Source of the DNA: Flavobacterium proteolyticum
Lineage (GTDB): Bacteria > Bacteroidota > Bacteroidia > Flavobacteriales > Flavobacteriaceae
Reading direction: 5' to 3'
NCBI RefSeq assembly: GCF_015223105.1
Contig: NZ_JADFTZ010000003.1
Location: 186,001 to 250,000, forward strand
Length of the DNA stretch: 64,000 nt
Position 1 is the stretch's first letter. Every line of letters starts with the position of its first letter. Positions 284-6,432 of this stretch are shown here, one piece after another. The notes below the pieces were generated by a model, which was not told where the DNA came from, did not search any database, and saw only the letters and a list, made by a program, of their open reading frames with translations. The position numbers were made by a program, and so were the translations under genes.

Positions 284-1234
284 TTATTTTCCTGCAGGAG
301 CTTCTACTTTGGTAGAATCAACTACTGTTGTTGTTGCAGCTGCTGGAGCCGCTTCTGCTGTTTCAACCCAAATTTCTCCTTCGGCTGGTTTTCCTCCTGG
401 AGGATTAGATCCTTGTAAACTTAAAACATAACTTGCAACACTTTGAATATCTTTAGAAGATAAATTTTTATTCCAAGCCACCATTGATGGGTTATTTTTA
501 CTTCCTTCAGAAATTAACTTGAAGACATTTTTAATTCCTCCACCATTAATCCAATGTTTGTCAGTTAAATTTGGTCCAACTAAACCTCCACCATCAGCTT
601 TGTGACATGCTGCACAAGCATTTGTGAAAATTTCTTTCCCTTTTGCTAAACTTGCAGCATCTGTTAAAGCTACTACTGTTTCGTAACTTACTTCATCAGC
701 AGGGTCTTTAGGTAATTTAGATTTTTCTAATTCTGCTAATTCAACTTCTTTATTAAATTCTTCTGCTTGAGTATAGTCTCCAACAATGTGGAAACGTACT
801 AAATATACGGCTGCAAAAATAATTGTACCATAGAATAAATATACCCACCATGGTGGTAATACGTTGTCTAATTCTTTGATACCATCGTAGTCGTGATCTA
901 ACATGATATCTTCTTCTCTCTCCATTTCATTAGAACGAGTAAGTTTAGCAACAATATTTTGGTACCATTTACTTTCTGTAAAAGAAACCGATTGTGCATT
1001 TGCTAATTGTTCTTTTTGCTCATCTGTTAATAAATGATAGGTTACTTTATCAACAGCGTCGATTACAATTTCGATTGCGATTAATAAAAATAGGAATACT
1101 CCTAGAAATAAAGCTACCATAGGAAACTTTATAAAGGCTGGCCTGTCTCCTGAATCGATAAAATATTCCAAAGCTGCAAATACGACTGCAAACAGTAATG
1201 GAACTCTTACGTATGATGGAATTAATTTTTTCAT
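284..1234 (-). CDS. ccoP: Cytochrome c oxidase cbb3-type subunit III (CcoP), mono-haem
   Basis: A 316-residue membrane-anchored cytochrome c that passes electrons to the CcoN catalytic subunit. Hydrophobic helices lie at about 11-26, 38-60 and 129-147. They are followed by a periplasmic cytochrome c domain with one haem-binding motif, CAACH (207-211), and a methionine ligand in NPSMVAWN. The C-terminus is a low-complexity Ala/Pro/Thr tail. Proteobacterial CcoP usually carries two haem motifs; this form has one, which is common in Bacteroidota. The first two helices before the PPWW segment correspond to the extended CcoP N-terminus of this phylum. It is preceded by ccoQ and the fused ccoNO on the same strand. 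Confidence 0.93.
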   Translation of the reverse strand: MKKLIPSYVRVPLLFAVVFAALEYFIDSGDRPAFIKFPMVALFLGVFLFLLIAIEIVIDAVDKVTYHLLTDEQKEQLANAQSVSFTESKWYQNIVAKLTRSNEMEREEDIMLDHDYDGIKELDNVLPPWWVYLFYGTIIFAAVYLVRFHIVGDYTQAEEFNKEVELAELEKSKLPKDPADEVSYETVVALTDAASLAKGKEIFTNACAACHKADGGGLVGPNLTDKHWINGGGIKNVFKLISEGSKNNPSMVAWNKNLSSKDIQSVASYVLSLQGSNPPGGKPAEGEIWVETAEAAPAAATTTVVDSTKVEAPAGK

Positions 1235-1335: not shown

Positions 1336-1506
1336 CTATTCGTCGTTTAAAGGCATTTCGCTAATTTCTTTGATTTTTTCTTTGCTGTAAGTAAATGCCC
1401 AAATTGTGAACAATACAAACGCTGTAAAGAAAATAGTCAACGAAATGATTGGATAAATATCTACTCCTGCAATAGTTTCCAAATTATGTTTAATGAACTT
1501 TAGCAT
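1336..1506 (-). CDS. ccoQ: CcoQ-like small subunit of cbb3 oxidase
   Basis: A 56-residue ORF starting MLKFIKHNLETIAGV, with a single hydrophobic helix (about residues 18-39) and a charged C-terminal tail ending MPLNDE. Its position between ccoNO and ccoP, its size and its one-helix topology fit CcoQ (FixQ), a small subunit that stabilises CcoP association in other bacteria. The ATG lies 5 nt after the ccoNO stop, so the two are probably translated from one message. Sequence conservation in CcoQ is weak, so the name rests largely on position and topology. Confidence 0.8.
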   Translation of the reverse strand: MLKFIKHNLETIAGVDIYPIISLTIFFTAFVLFTIWAFTYSKEKIKEISEMPLNDE

Positions 1507-1511
1507 AACTT

Positions 1512-3689
1512 TTATTTTTTAACTTGAGTATCAGTACCTAATCTTTGTAAGTATGCAATCAACGCTACAATCTCTCTATCTTTTAATTTTGATGTTGTGT
1601 TTCCACCAAAAGATTTCTTAATATCAGGGTTCGCTAACAAGTTTGCTTCAATTTTGCTTGCTTGTTCGTCCATATGTTTAAGAGCATTATTAATATCTGC
1701 TTCAGTATAAGGAACTCCTAAAGTTACCATGGTTCTCATTTTGTCTTGAATAGTTGAATTATCTAACTCATTTTTAATTAACCATTGGTATCTTGGCATA
1801 ATTGATTTTTCATTTAATCCTTGAGGATCGTACATATGGTTAAAATGCCATACATCATCTCTACCTCCATTAAATGGTTTTCCTTTAACACCTTCACGAG
1901 CTAAATCCGGACCTGTACGTTTAGAACCCCATAAGAATGGATGATCGTAAACAAATTCTCCTGCTTTAGAATAGTCACCATAACGCTCAACTTCTGAACG
2001 GAACGGGCGAACCATTTGAGAGTGACATCCCACACAACCTTCACGGATGTATAAATCTCTACCTTGCAACTCAAGTGGTGTATATGGTTTAACTGACGAA
2101 ATTGTTGGAATATTTGATTTTACTAAAATTGTTGGTAAAATTTGAATTAAACCACCAATCAAAATTGCTATAGTAGTCAAAACCATAAATTGAACTGGTT
2201 TTCTTTCTAACCAAGAGTGTAATTTTTCTCCTTTTAAACGGTTTGGAGAAATTACAGCTAATGCTGGAGCTTCAACTAATTCGTTTTCAACTGGAGAACC
2301 TTGTCTAACGGTTCTAATTACATTGTAAACTAATACGATAACCCCTGTAAGATATAATGTTCCTCCTACTGCACGCATCCAATACATTGGCATAATTTCA
2401 GTTACCGTTTCAAGGAAGTTACCATATTGTAATGCTCCACCATCTGGTTTGAATTGTTTCCACATAGAAGCTTGAGTAAATCCTGCAACATATAATGGAA
2501 GCGAATATAAAATAATCCCTAAAGTACCAATCCAGAAATGGAAATTCGCTAATTTTTCAGAGAATAATTTTGTTTTTGTCATTCTTGGGATTAACCAATA
2601 AATCATACCGAATGATAAGAAACCATTCCAAGCTAAAGCTCCAACGTGAACGTGAGCAATAATCCAGTCTGTAAAGTGTGCAATTGCGTTAACGTTTTTC
2701 AATGATAACATTGGACCTTCAAAAGTAGCCATACCATAACCTGTAATGGCTACTACGAAGAATTTCAATACCGCATCAGTACGTACTTTATCCCAAACAC
2801 CTCTTAAGGTTAATAAACCATTAATCATACCTCCCCAAGATGGAGCAATCAACATCACAGAGAAAACAACTCCTAAATTCTGAGCCCAATCAGGTAAAGC
2901 AGTATATAATAAGTGGTGAGGTCCAGCCCAAATGTAAATGAAGATTAACGACCAAAAGTGGATAATTGATAATCTATAAGAATATACAGGGCGATTTGCT
3001 ACTTTAGGTACGAAGTAATACATCATTCCTAAAAATGGTGTAGTTAAGAAGAATGCTACCGCATTGTGTCCGTACCACCATTGTACTAAAGCATCTTGAA
3101 CACCTGCATAAATTGAATATGATTTCATTCCTGATAACGAAACAGGTAGTTCTAAACTGTTAAAGATGTGAAGTACCGCAACTGTTACAAATGTTGCAAT
3201 GTAAAACCAAATAGCTACATAAATATGACGTTCTCTTCTTTTAATAATGGTTCCAATCATATTGATACCAAAAACTACCCAAATAAGAGCAATTGCAATG
3301 TCGATTGGCCATTCTAATTCGGCATATTCTTTAGAAGTAGAATAACCTAATGGTAAAGTAATGGCTGCAGCAACTATAATTAACTGCCAACCCCAAAAAT
3401 GAATTTTACTCAAAAGGTCGCTAAACATTCTTGCTTTTAATAAACGCTGCATTGAGTAATAAATACCTGCAAACATTGCGTTTCCAACGAAGGCAAAAAT
3501 AACTGCATTGGTGTGTAAAGGTCTTAAGCGTCCAAAACTTAAAAACGATATGCCGCTGGTTAAGTTTGGAAACAAAAATAGGAAAGCTAAAATAAGCCCC
3601 ACTAACATCCCTACTACACCAAAGACTATACTAGCGTAGAGGAAATTCCTTACAATTTTGTTGTCGTAATAAAATTGTTGCTTCTCCAT
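1512..3689 (-). CDS. ccoNO: Fused cbb3 oxidase subunits I and II (CcoN-CcoO)
   Basis: A 725-residue fusion of the catalytic haem-copper subunit and the mono-haem cytochrome c subunit of cbb3 oxidase, the high-affinity terminal oxidase. Residues 1 to about 465 are CcoN, with about twelve helices. Haem and CuB histidines are visible in LHTNAVIF, YGHNAVAFF, AGPHHLLYTALPDW and AHVHVGALAWNGF. After a linker, a helix near 498-522 anchors CcoO. Its haem motif CVGCHSQMVRPFRSE lies near residue 550 and is followed by WGSKRTGPDLAREG. The fusion is typical of Bacteroidota; most other phyla carry ccoN and ccoO as separate genes. Only 2 nt separate it from ccoS upstream. Confidence 0.96.
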   Translation of the reverse strand: MEKQQFYYDNKIVRNFLYASIVFGVVGMLVGLILAFLFLFPNLTSGISFLSFGRLRPLHTNAVIFAFVGNAMFAGIYYSMQRLLKARMFSDLLSKIHFWGWQLIIVAAAITLPLGYSTSKEYAELEWPIDIAIALIWVVFGINMIGTIIKRRERHIYVAIWFYIATFVTVAVLHIFNSLELPVSLSGMKSYSIYAGVQDALVQWWYGHNAVAFFLTTPFLGMMYYFVPKVANRPVYSYRLSIIHFWSLIFIYIWAGPHHLLYTALPDWAQNLGVVFSVMLIAPSWGGMINGLLTLRGVWDKVRTDAVLKFFVVAITGYGMATFEGPMLSLKNVNAIAHFTDWIIAHVHVGALAWNGFLSFGMIYWLIPRMTKTKLFSEKLANFHFWIGTLGIILYSLPLYVAGFTQASMWKQFKPDGGALQYGNFLETVTEIMPMYWMRAVGGTLYLTGVIVLVYNVIRTVRQGSPVENELVEAPALAVISPNRLKGEKLHSWLERKPVQFMVLTTIAILIGGLIQILPTILVKSNIPTISSVKPYTPLELQGRDLYIREGCVGCHSQMVRPFRSEVERYGDYSKAGEFVYDHPFLWGSKRTGPDLAREGVKGKPFNGGRDDVWHFNHMYDPQGLNEKSIMPRYQWLIKNELDNSTIQDKMRTMVTLGVPYTEADINNALKHMDEQASKIEANLLANPDIKKSFGGNTTSKLKDREIVALIAYLQRLGTDTQVKK

Positions 3690-3691
3690 AA

Positions 3692-3889
3692 TTAGATTGA
3701 TTTTTGTTTTTCTGTTTGTATTAATTTGTTAGGATTTTCTTTTTTCACTATTTCATCATCAAATAACATTCTGACCGATGGTGTATAGTCATCATCGTAC
3801 TGTCCACTTTTAACTGCTTTTATAAAAGCACCTAAAAAGACAATCGCTACTACTATACTAATTGTGATTAATAAATAAATGACACTCAT
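3692..3889 (-). CDS. ccoS: CcoS, cbb3 oxidase maturation protein
   Basis: A 65-residue protein with one N-terminal helix (about 3-25) and the motif AVKSGQYDDDYTPSVRMLFDDE. This matches CcoS, a small membrane protein needed for cofactor insertion into cbb3 oxidase. It is the first gene of the ccoS-ccoNO-ccoQ-ccoP run and stops 2 nt before ccoNO. It has its own promoter in the 83-bp gap behind ccoI: a perfect -7 element (3907-3914) and a Crp/Fnr-type palindrome (3935-3952) centred about 36 bp upstream of it. Transcription of the oxidase structural genes therefore appears to start here rather than at ccoI. Confidence 0.93.
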   Translation of the reverse strand: MSVIYLLITISIVVAIVFLGAFIKAVKSGQYDDDYTPSVRMLFDDEIVKKENPNKLIQTEKQKSI

Positions 3890-3906: not shown

Positions 3907-3914
3907 CAAAGTTA
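3907..3914 (-). promoter_or_regulatory. -7 element of the ccoS-ccoNOQP promoter
   Basis: TAACTTTG on the minus strand matches the Bacteroidota consensus TAnnTTTG. It lies 18 bp upstream of the ccoS ATG. No good TTTG -33 element is present, as expected for an activator-dependent promoter. Confidence 0.65.
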
Positions 3915-3934
3915 CTTCCACCCGTTTTTATAAA

Positions 3935-3952
3935 ACATGATTTTTATCATGT
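3935..3952 (-). promoter_or_regulatory. Crp/Fnr-type operator upstream of ccoS
   Basis: A perfect palindrome, ACATGAT-TTTT-ATCATGT, with 7-bp arms, contains the TGAT-N4-ATCA core of Fnr-family sites. Its centre (3943.5) is 36.5 bp upstream of the end of the -7 element. That puts it near -41 to -42 of the predicted start, the usual class II activator position. Confidence 0.75.
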
Positions 3953-3972
3953 ATTAAAATTTTCTTAAATAA

Positions 3973-6360
3973 TTACTTTTTATTAGCAAATAAATTGGTC
4001 ATTATAGTTACAAAACTTACAATAGTTATGGTGCTCAATGGCATAATTATCGCCGCTACAATAGGATCTAACTTACCTGTTACAGCATAACTCAATCCAA
4101 CTACATTATATAATAAGGAAAGACCAAAACTCATGTAAATTGTCTTCATGGCGTTTTTAGAATAGCGCATAAAAAAGGCTATTTTATCGAATTGTGTGGC
4201 ATCTAAAATTCCATCACAAGCTGGTGAGAATACATTAACGTTTTCTGAAATGGATAATCCTAAATTACTTTGCGCTAATGCTCCAGCATCGTTTAACCCA
4301 TCGCCAACCATCATGACATTTTTGCCTTCTTTTTGCAATTGTTCAATGTATTGTAGTTTTTGCTCTGGCTTTTGATTGAAAACTAAAGTCGTTTTCGTTG
4401 GCAACATTTTCTCCAATATTCTCTTTTCACCATCATTATCACCAGATAAAACTACTAAATTGTAATGTTTAGCCAAATCGGAAAACAAATCTTCTAATCC
4501 TTTTCTGTATTGATTATTGAACACATAACTTCCTTTGTAAACACCATTGATTTCCACATGCACTTTCGTTTTCTTATGCGTGTTTTCGGTCATGGTTTTT
4601 AAGAATTGTGAAGAACCTAATTTTATGGTATTTCCTTCAATTTCTGCAAAAATTCCTTTTCCAATGATTTCCTCAAAGTTTGAAGTTTCTACTTTTTCTT
4701 GATTCGGAATAAAATCATATAATCTTCTACTTAATGGATGATTAGAACCACGTAAAACGTTTTTCAATAATCTTAATTCGGAAGAATTTAATTCCGTTCC
4801 TTCATAAGTAATAGCTGTTTTTTTATTGGTTGTAATCGTTCCTGTTTTATCGAAAACAATCGTATCTACTTTGGCTAATTGTTCTACAACTAAAGCATTT
4901 TTCAAGTACAATTTTCGCTTGCCTAGAATTCGCAACACATTTCCTAATGTAAACGGAGCCGTTAATGCCAATGCACACGGACAAGCCACAATCAAAATCG
5001 CAGTGAAAACATTAAATGCTGTAGTAACATCAATAAATATCCAATAGATAAAAGATACTATAGCTAAAGCCAATAAAGTTGGCGTAAAATAACGACTAAT
5101 TCTATCGGTAATGGTTTTATGTTGTTGTTCTACGCGTTTTTGGAAGACGTCGTTACTCCACAATTGGGTTAAGTAACTTTGGGAAACCGAAAATAAAACT
5201 TCCATTTCGATGACTTTTCCCATTTGTTTTCCGCCTGCGAAGACTTTGTCGCCTGATTTTTTCTCAATCGGAACTGCTTCGCCTGTTACGAAACTGTAAT
5301 CAATAGAAGCTTTTTCGGAAATTAAAATCCCGTCTACCGGAATTAACTCTTGATTTCGAATCAACAATCGATCGCCTTTTTGGATATCATATACTTGAAC
5401 TGATTCTTCATCTCCATTTGGTAAAACCTTTGTAATTGCAATTGGAAAATACGATTTATAATCGCGTTCAAATGAAAGGAAATCGTAAGTTTTTTGTTGG
5501 AACAGTTTTCCTAATAGCATAAAGAAAATTAATCCTGCCATACTATCAAAGAAACCTTGACCATAATCGAAAACAATATCGACCGTACTTCTTACGAACA
5601 TCACTACAATTCCTAAAGCAATTGGAATATCAATATTCAACAAACCTGATTTTATGCTTTTCCAAGCGGAAACGTAATATCCCGAAGCCGAATAAACAAA
5701 CGTAGGAAGCGATAATCCAAAAATTAACCAACGGAAAAATCCTCGGTATTGATCAATCCAATATTCTTCTACTTCAAAATATTCGGGAAACGAAAGCAGC
5801 ATAATATTTCCAAAACAGAAAAACGCTACTCCTATTTTATAAATTAAAGTTCGGTCGACTTTTTTCTTGCCTTCATCAAAATTTTCTAAAGAAATATAAG
5901 GTTCGTAACCAATCGAACTCAATAAGTAAACAATATCTTTTAAAGAAGTTTGCTCGGGATTGAACGTAACTCGGACTTTCTTTTCGCCAAAATTAACTTG
6001 CGAAGCGTTTATTCCTGGTTGAAGCTTTTGTAGATTTTCCAGAATCCAAATACACGAACTACAGTGTATATGAGGAATGTAGAGTGAAACAATATGTGTT
6101 GTACGCTCTTGGAATTCCAATAATTTTGTAACAATTTCTTCATTGTCTAAAAAGTCATATTTGCCCTGAATGTCTTGTGGAGTAGCGCCGGGTGCTGCCT
6201 GAAAATCATAATAACACGTTAGGTCGTTTTGACTAAAAATCTCGTAAACGGTTTTACAACCATTGCAACAAAACTTTTTTTCGTCAAATACAATCTCGTC
6301 TTTTTTTATAATTTCATTACCACAATGGAAACAATTTTCTGTGTCCATAAATTTGCTCAT
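3973..6360 (-). CDS. ccoI: Copper-translocating P-type ATPase CcoI (cbb3 assembly)
   Basis: A heavy-metal P1B ATPase that supplies copper for cbb3 oxidase. It has an N-terminal zinc-finger-like region (CFHCGNE, FCCNGCKTVYEIF), a metal-binding domain with HIHCSSCIWILENL, eight membrane helices with the CPC transport motif (ACPCALAL), the phosphorylation motif DKTGTIT and the hinge GDGLNDAGAL. The reading frame extends upstream to 6375, but the predicted -7 element occupies 6373-6380, so that start would fall before the transcript. The ATG at 6360 is chosen; another in-frame ATG at 6348 also fits. The divergent neighbour is a Crp/Fnr regulator, and a palindrome at 6402-6417 lies between them. 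Confidence 0.93.
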   Translation of the reverse strand: MSKFMDTENCFHCGNEIIKKDEIVFDEKKFCCNGCKTVYEIFSQNDLTCYYDFQAAPGATPQDIQGKYDFLDNEEIVTKLLEFQERTTHIVSLYIPHIHCSSCIWILENLQKLQPGINASQVNFGEKKVRVTFNPEQTSLKDIVYLLSSIGYEPYISLENFDEGKKKVDRTLIYKIGVAFFCFGNIMLLSFPEYFEVEEYWIDQYRGFFRWLIFGLSLPTFVYSASGYYVSAWKSIKSGLLNIDIPIALGIVVMFVRSTVDIVFDYGQGFFDSMAGLIFFMLLGKLFQQKTYDFLSFERDYKSYFPIAITKVLPNGDEESVQVYDIQKGDRLLIRNQELIPVDGILISEKASIDYSFVTGEAVPIEKKSGDKVFAGGKQMGKVIEMEVLFSVSQSYLTQLWSNDVFQKRVEQQHKTITDRISRYFTPTLLALAIVSFIYWIFIDVTTAFNVFTAILIVACPCALALTAPFTLGNVLRILGKRKLYLKNALVVEQLAKVDTIVFDKTGTITTNKKTAITYEGTELNSSELRLLKNVLRGSNHPLSRRLYDFIPNQEKVETSNFEEIIGKGIFAEIEGNTIKLGSSQFLKTMTENTHKKTKVHVEINGVYKGSYVFNNQYRKGLEDLFSDLAKHYNLVVLSGDNDGEKRILEKMLPTKTTLVFNQKPEQKLQYIEQLQKEGKNVMMVGDGLNDAGALAQSNLGLSISENVNVFSPACDGILDATQFDKIAFFMRYSKNAMKTIYMSFGLSLLYNVVGLSYAVTGKLDPIVAAIIMPLSTITIVSFVTIMTNLFANKK

Positions 6361-6372
6361 TTTACCTGTGAA

Positions 6373-6380
6373 CAAATTTC
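6373..6380 (-). promoter_or_regulatory. Candidate -7 element of ccoI
   Basis: GAAATTTG on the minus strand has one mismatch to TAnnTTTG. Its end is 36.5 bp from the centre of the palindrome at 6402-6417, exactly the spacing seen at ccoS. That shared spacing supports this otherwise weak match. Confidence 0.5.
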
Positions 6381-6401
6381 CAACTTAACCATAAAACAAA
6401 A

Positions 6402-6417
6402 TATGATATTTATCATA
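6402..6417. promoter_or_regulatory. Crp/Fnr-type operator between ccoI and the regulator gene
   Basis: The palindrome TATGAT-ATTT-ATCATA shares the TGAT-N4-ATCA core with the ccoS site. It is at activator distance from the ccoI promoter. It also overlaps the expected -33 region of the divergent regulator gene (-7 at 6425-6432), where bound protein would repress. Confidence 0.7.
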
Positions 6418-6424
6418 CTTTGAT

Positions 6425-6432
6425 TATCTTTG
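6425..6432 (+). promoter_or_regulatory. -7 element of the Crp/Fnr regulator gene
   Basis: TATCTTTG is a perfect match to TAnnTTTG, 26 bp before the ATG at 6459. Its -33 region would fall inside the palindrome at 6402-6417. Confidence 0.65.

Follow-up and report, generated by a model that had tools for sequence, protein, structure and literature searches.

Escherichia coli FNR has the operator TTGAT-N4-ATCAA, the cluster ligands Cys20, Cys23, Cys29 and Cys122 and the recognition residues E209, S212 and R213; the classical class II position, for FNR as for CRP, is -41.5. In alphaproteobacteria two routes, the iron-sulfur (Fe-S) protein FnrN and the two-component system FixLJ-FixK, end on very similar sites of the TTGA type, according to PMC4999443. 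Among the open-licence papers searched we found no description of FNR-type control of the flavobacterial high-affinity oxidase, and the term "flavobacteri" does not occur in Rodionov 2005 (PMC1274295). Here we analyze a 64,000-nucleotide stretch of Flavobacterium proteolyticum (contig NZ_JADFTZ010000003.1, positions 186,001 to 250,000; hereafter the window), whose minus strand carries a cbb3 oxidase block composed of ccoI, ccoS, a fused ccoNO, a small open reading frame (ORF) at the place of ccoQ and a ccoP-like gene. A gene for a Crp/Fnr-family regulator of 225 amino acids, which we name FnrF, lies divergent from ccoI. An earlier note, made from the sequence alone, had proposed that palindromes placed identically at ccoS and ccoI could let one protein activate the oxidase genes and repress itself.

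The system belongs with FNR and does not form a type of its own. Judging from sequence comparison, we regard it as probable that FnrF is an FNR-like, presumably Fe-S-containing, low-oxygen activator of the cbb3 genes. With the FNR of E. coli and Aliivibrio fischeri it shares the Crp/Fnr fold, three cysteines (Cys4, Cys7 and Cys106, aligned with Cys20, Cys23 and Cys122), the recognition Glu and Arg, the predicted -41.5 position and predicted low-oxygen targets. It differs from them in having S or N at the position of Cys29, an invariant Cys53 and Ile for Ser212, and also in the half-site, ATGAY, and in the promoters, which are of the -33/-7 type. With alphaproteobacterial FnrN/FixK it has in common the predicted control of cco, hemN and denitrification, and the presence of a probable Fe-S regulator beside a two-component route (PMC4999443); unlike in the FixJ to FixK cascade, the flavobacterial response regulator itself bears the Crp output (REC-cNMP-HTH; REC-Crp below). 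From the analysis come an operator, with its exact place on the unusual -33/-7 promoters, and a candidate sensor whose cysteines are specified. It also predicts a regulon extending to haem synthesis and denitrification, and it points to a second regulator, which possibly uses the same operator. Together they give a testable oxygen-sensing circuit, each step of which is amenable to ordinary methods in flavobacteria.

A fixed distance between palindrome and -7 element

Both palindromes described in the earlier note are present. The core at ccoS is TGATTTTTATCA (3938-3949) and that at ccoI is TGATATTTATCA (6404-6415), and in both promoters the center of the palindrome and the final base of the -7 element are 36.5 bp apart (Table 1). 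The note had rated ccoS as perfect and ccoI as having one mismatch, which holds, except that the mismatch sits in the -7 element and not in the palindrome core. With the end of the -7 element placed at -5, this spacing centers both palindromes at -41.5 of the predicted starts, since the TAnnTTTG box spans -12 to -5 in Flavobacterium psychrophilum (PMC9723704). Another candidate for the ccoI -7 element, TAAGTTGG on the minus strand, was rejected, its end being 29.5 bp from the center versus 36.5 for GAAATTTG, where NAnnTTTG is conserved.

The number of palindromes is unremarkable, as the 64 kb contain 2 perfect cores versus 2.20 expected (58 versus 49.55 with one mismatch), and it is their geometry that exceeds chance. 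We compared the 80 closest named loci, of which 55 are titled Flavobacterium and the remainder mostly uncultured Flavobacteriaceae or Bacteroidetes (the close set). ccoS could be located in 73 of them, and all 73 have the palindrome and a perfect TAnnTTTG at 36.5. On the ccoI side, NAnnTTTG is found at 36.5 in 74/80 loci, at 35.5 in three and at neither distance in three. Information content in the 73 ccoS promoters is about 2 bits at the outer bases of the palindrome and at those of the -7 element, about 1 bit at the Y and R positions and at most 1.15 bits in the columns from -28 to -13, two of which are near zero. The T-run directly downstream of the ccoS palindrome is possibly a remnant of a -33 element. 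Two more distant sets comprise 30 and 18 loci, of which 5 and 4, respectively, are without a site matching at least 13 of 14 positions within 160 bp; among the loci having a site, the ccoI geometry (36.5) is seen in 22/25 and 9/14. The ccoI layout recurs in a genome of the same phylum (L228) whose regulator is 40% identical.

The conserved form of the operator at cco is ATGAY-N4-RTCAT, unlike the TTGAT of E. coli. Relatives mostly read ATGAT-N4-GTCAT at the site between ccoI and the regulator gene, and the perfect TGAT-N4-ATCA, present in just 10/80 loci, was rejected as a consensus. Scanning 121 genomes of the genus with 31 spacings allowed, we obtained 746 pattern matches versus 130 for the reversed pattern. 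The tally of spacings was made from the 150 matches listed, which come from 20/121 genomes: 78 of these ATGAY-type sites lie at exactly 36.5, and 116 at 35.5-37.5. TTGAY forms only a minor genus-wide peak among the matches listed, and some such sites are probably used too. A smaller TTGAY-N4-RTCAA group at 36.5, with a similar spacer, was observed in several species (G154:C9:113541, G200:C65:9098, G255:C1:5325807); its members may serve a different Crp-family protein or constitute a less stringent class of targets of the same one.

It could be argued that AT-rich palindromes happen to lie near these promoters and were kept by shared descent. The chance-level number of perfect palindromes in the window agrees with such a coincidence, but it does not account for the concentration of so many listed matches at one of the 31 allowed spacings, for a spacer that diverged whereas the site and the -7 element stayed, or for the co-occurrence of operator number with regulators described below. 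Coincidence is contradicted by the spacing and conservation tests, and we give it next to no credence. We favor instead an FNR-like FnrF dimer that would bind ATGAY-N4-RTCAT, the palindromes being the operators of this neighboring regulator. From -41.5 of ccoS (ahead of ccoNO and ccoP) and of ccoI, FnrF would act as a class II activator, on promoters that are presumably of the flavobacterial sigma-A type (-33/-7), with the -33 element absent or covered. That one Fnr-like protein activates both cco promoters, as the earlier note proposed, is likely and well supported by geometry, conservation, genome-wide spacing and co-occurrence.

Cysteines and recognition helix of FnrF

FnrF matches both domains of the Crp/Fnr superfamily above cut-off (PF00027, 78.5 bits; PF13545, 58.7 bits). 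It scores 79.2 bits against the NCBIfam Fnr model NF008365, whose cut-off is 228, and 67.7 bits against the FixK model, whose cut-off is 300. FixK, in the usage of PMC4999443, denotes proteins without cluster cysteines, and FnrF has four that are invariant. The closest solved structure by sequence is 2GAU, a Crp/Fnr protein of Porphyromonas gingivalis (E = 1.8e-31), which is also top by fold (Z 23.5, root-mean-square deviation 3.2, 213 aligned); unlike FnrF, it lacks a cysteine at the places aligned with Cys53 and Cys106, and the alignment starts at residue 18, beyond Cys4 and Cys7. One Flavobacteriales homolog, which may or may not be FnrF, was grouped near MalR-annotated proteins (PMC8510549).

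Among the 146 sequences compared (the window protein is counted twice, once from the window and once from locus L016), Cys4, Cys7, Cys53 and Cys106 are invariant, and all four are also kept in a subset of 39 sequences, 35 of which are only 35-56% identical. In the alignment to E. coli FNR, Cys4, Cys7 and Cys106 correspond to Cys20, Cys23 and Cys122, FNR Cys29 aligns with FnrF Ser13, and FnrF Cys53 aligns with FNR Ala70. The earlier statement that the regulator lacks the cysteine spacing of Fnr is thus correct for Cys29 and wrong for the other three positions, and it had missed the additional Cys53. None of the four aligned positions is occupied by a cysteine in the six control paralogs. In the AlphaFold model (mean pLDDT 74.3), Cys53 is held by a predicted strand at 50-56 and Cys106 by one at 103-109, which we take to be neighbors in the beta-roll. 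FNR Cys29 seems to be replaced by Cys53, and the most economical reading would be a four-cysteine Fe-S site with one relocated ligand. A [4Fe-4S] cluster on these four residues probably senses oxygen; at low oxygen the cluster would be intact and the FnrF dimer active. Two further cysteines, FnrF Cys29 and Cys59, were considered as ligands and rejected: they are kept in 110 and 109 of 111 near relatives, but in 113 and 120 of the 146 when distant sequences are included.

All 146 sequences have Glu191, Ile194 and Arg195 in the recognition helix. The earlier note had correctly seen that the Glu and Arg of Fnr are kept; Ile194 stands at the position of S212, and we infer that this change from Ser to Ile accompanies the change from T to A in the half-site.

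FnrF might also be an FNR/FixK-like activator without an oxygen-sensing Fe-S cluster, in which the cysteines bind zinc or work as a thiol switch, or in which the signal is nitric oxide. This would suit the absence of FNR Cys29 (position 13 is S or N in 143/146), as well as predicted targets that belong to nitrogen-oxide metabolism (nirK, ric and a norC-like gene). Against it stand the invariance of three of the four FNR ligand positions and of a fourth Cys, all missing from the six control paralogs, and the response of the F. psychrophilum cco and haem-synthesis genes to oxygen limitation (PMC9723704). We consider a cluster-free FnrF rather unlikely and retain the Fe-S sensor as the preferred reading.

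Co-occurrence of predicted operators with FnrF and REC-Crp

We assigned 149 Flavobacteriaceae genomes to regulator classes at E <= 1e-50 and counted operator matches, allowing spacings of 33.5-37.5 and leaving the -7 element free at its first base. The mean number of matches per genome is 0.97 in the 30 genomes with neither FnrF nor REC-Crp, 5.67 in the 54 that have FnrF alone, 5.83 in the 30 that have REC-Crp alone and 10.91 in the 35 that have both; the reversed-pattern controls have means of 0.30-0.59. Two of the 54 FnrF-only genomes have zero matches. The cco genes are present in 113/119 genomes with FnrF or REC-Crp versus 2/30 without; these two are G020, whose diverged FnrF-like protein retains the four cysteines, and G048, an assembly that is 82% complete. 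G020 and G043 fell below the E threshold though their homologs keep the four cysteines.

REC-Crp, present in 65 of the 149 genomes, is a receiver-cNMP-HTH protein whose gene lies beside that of a PAS histidine kinase; the pair is possibly a FixL-like oxygen sensor. All five REC-Crp proteins compared share the E..IR recognition residues and have none of the four cysteines. In loci L191, L192 and L193, REC-Crp and the PAS kinase are next to a Usp gene and FnrF. The order PAS kinase then REC-Crp, with Usp nearby, was observed at L191:1810-4100, L192:5068-7446 and L193:1653-3996, and also in L189 and L195.

The operators could alternatively be those of a different regulator that shares these recognition residues, either REC-Crp with its PAS kinase or the Crp paralog of the denitrification island, FnrF having its main targets elsewhere. 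E..IR is kept in REC-Crp and in L155, and the matches of the REC-Crp genomes without FnrF include sites before cco genes in G130 and G143. The window's genome, however, has the sites and no REC-Crp match at E <= 1e-50, and a site is found within 160 bp upstream of FnrF in 80/80 close loci. Assigning the cco operators to a regulator other than FnrF appears to us distinctly improbable. On a broader proposal our judgment is evenly balanced: FnrF may represent a branch of its own among oxygen-sensing Fe-S regulators, one that spans the phylum and whose fourth ligand has been relocated from the N-terminal loop to Cys53 on a beta-roll strand, and flavobacteria may interchange FnrF with PAS kinase and REC-Crp on the same -41.5 ATGAY-N4-RTCAT operator, so that two unrelated sensors would serve one low-oxygen regulon.

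Several observations weigh against FnrF as an FNR-like Fe-S activator of the cco genes. The ccoI -7 element is imperfect. FNR Cys29 is missing, Cys53 is no more than a candidate for the fourth ligand, and confidence in the AlphaFold model is low at the N-terminus (pLDDT 54). TTGAY-N4-RTCAA sites also peak at 36.5 (23 of the 150 matches listed for this form; the next spacing has 11), so that the first base of the half-site is no absolute discriminator. Because regulator-less genomes mostly lack cco, co-occurrence is not independent of gene content, and because REC-Crp and the second Crp paralog share E..IR, individual genome-wide sites are not assignable. In the window's own genome, 7 of the 30 matches read fall inside long ORFs, as chance matches would. 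Finally, such a site and spacing were found nearby in only 3 of the 15 most distant homolog loci, and the circuit is therefore not traced through the whole phylum.

Predicted regulon, possible self-control and neighboring genes

At the -41.5 spacing and with up to one mismatch, the window's own genome has 33 matches, 9 of them perfect (7 for the reversed pattern); with the spacing shifted by one base, the numbers are 21 and 2 (8 for the reversed control). Besides ccoS and ccoI, sites precede hemN (TIGR00538) and the copper nitrite reductase gene nirK (TIGR02376), and one lies at a divergent pair formed by ric (TIGR03652) and a norC-like cytochrome gene; the three family models are matched above cut-off. 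Further sites precede genes that include those of an Rrf2 regulator, an OmpW-family protein and a second Crp-family protein; on contig 16, another is located in front of a small gene, which is followed by a nosZ-like ORF. The NorC and NosZ names come from sequence reading, with no family model. The predicted targets fit a low-oxygen regulon. In F. psychrophilum, the cbb3 oxidase is strongly up under oxygen limitation and haem-synthesis genes are up too (PMC9723704, Guerin 2021), in agreement with one palindrome type at both groups of genes; "fnr" and "crp" are absent from the main text of that paper.

The ccoI palindrome also bears on the divergent gene. The last base of the -7 element of the regulator gene lies 22.5 bp from its center, so the 14-bp palindrome covers about -34 to -21 and overlaps the -33 region, as the earlier note had claimed. 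In the close set, a perfect regulator -7 element is found at 21.5-23.5 bp in 78/80 loci, with the palindrome over the -33 region. By covering the regulator's own -33 region, the site probably limits FnrF expression in close relatives, and on this geometry self-repression is plausible in Flavobacterium. The arrangement is seen in only 4/25 and 4/14 of the more distant loci having a site, and in 21/25 loci of one distant set there is no perfect regulator -7 element at that place; since spacing varies outside the close relatives, we limit self-repression to them. In L214, one of the 14 loci of the other set, the palindrome also has the 36.5 spacing toward the regulator gene, an arrangement that would point to self-activation.

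The genes and promoter elements are listed in Table 1. The divergence of ccoI from the regulator was confirmed in 77/80 close loci, two of the others being without a match and one partial. CcoS scores 40.8 bits with TIGR00847 (cut-off 28.35), and an NCBIfam search gave no match for the small ORF at the ccoQ position.

Table 1. Positions of operators, promoter elements and genes in the window
Feature	Position	Strand	Remarks
Predicted operator at ccoS, ATGATTTTTATCAT	3937..3950		center 3943.5, predicted -41.5 of ccoS
ccoS -7 element, TAACTTTG	3914 down to 3907	-	perfect TAnnTTTG
T-run adjoining ccoS palindrome	3932..3935 (-33..-30)	-	each base T in 72 or 73 of 73 ccoS promoters
Predicted operator common to ccoI and divergent regulator gene, ATGATATTTATCAT	6403..6416		center 6409.5; predicted -41.5 of ccoI and predicted about -27.5 of regulator gene
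ccoI -7 element, GAAATTTG	6380 down to 6373	-	1 mismatch to TAnnTTTG
Regulator-gene -7 element, TATCTTTG	6425..6432	+	perfect -7 at 21.5-23.5 in 78/80 close loci
FnrF (name given here), Crp/Fnr-family regulator, 225 aa	6459..7136	+	PF00027 and PF13545 above cut-off
ccoI, heavy-metal P-type ATPase	3973..6360	-	ATG 6360 taken as start; ORF list starts at TTG 6375
ccoS	3692..3889	-	TIGR00847 and PF03597 above cut-off
ccoNO, cbb3 subunits I/II fused	1512..3689	-	NF011053, TIGR00780 and TIGR00781 above cut-off
Small ORF at ccoQ position	1336..1506	-	from ORF list
ccoP-like, subunit III	284..1234	-	TIGR00782, E 1.7e-30, under its cut-off

The window's genome carries a denitrification island (L234, L235; G000 contig 16, 13500-46000) that contains nirK, ric, Rrf2 and the second Crp-family gene by family models, and norC- and nosZ-like genes by reading. 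ATGAY sites at -41.5 recur in it, and divergent genes share some of them. In G172 (L194:10281-11696), the cco cluster is faced, from its far end, by a hemN-like gene that has the same -41.5 operator. Facing pairs of sites about 7.6-8.0 kb apart, as in G172, are also present in G154, G163, G200 and G221.

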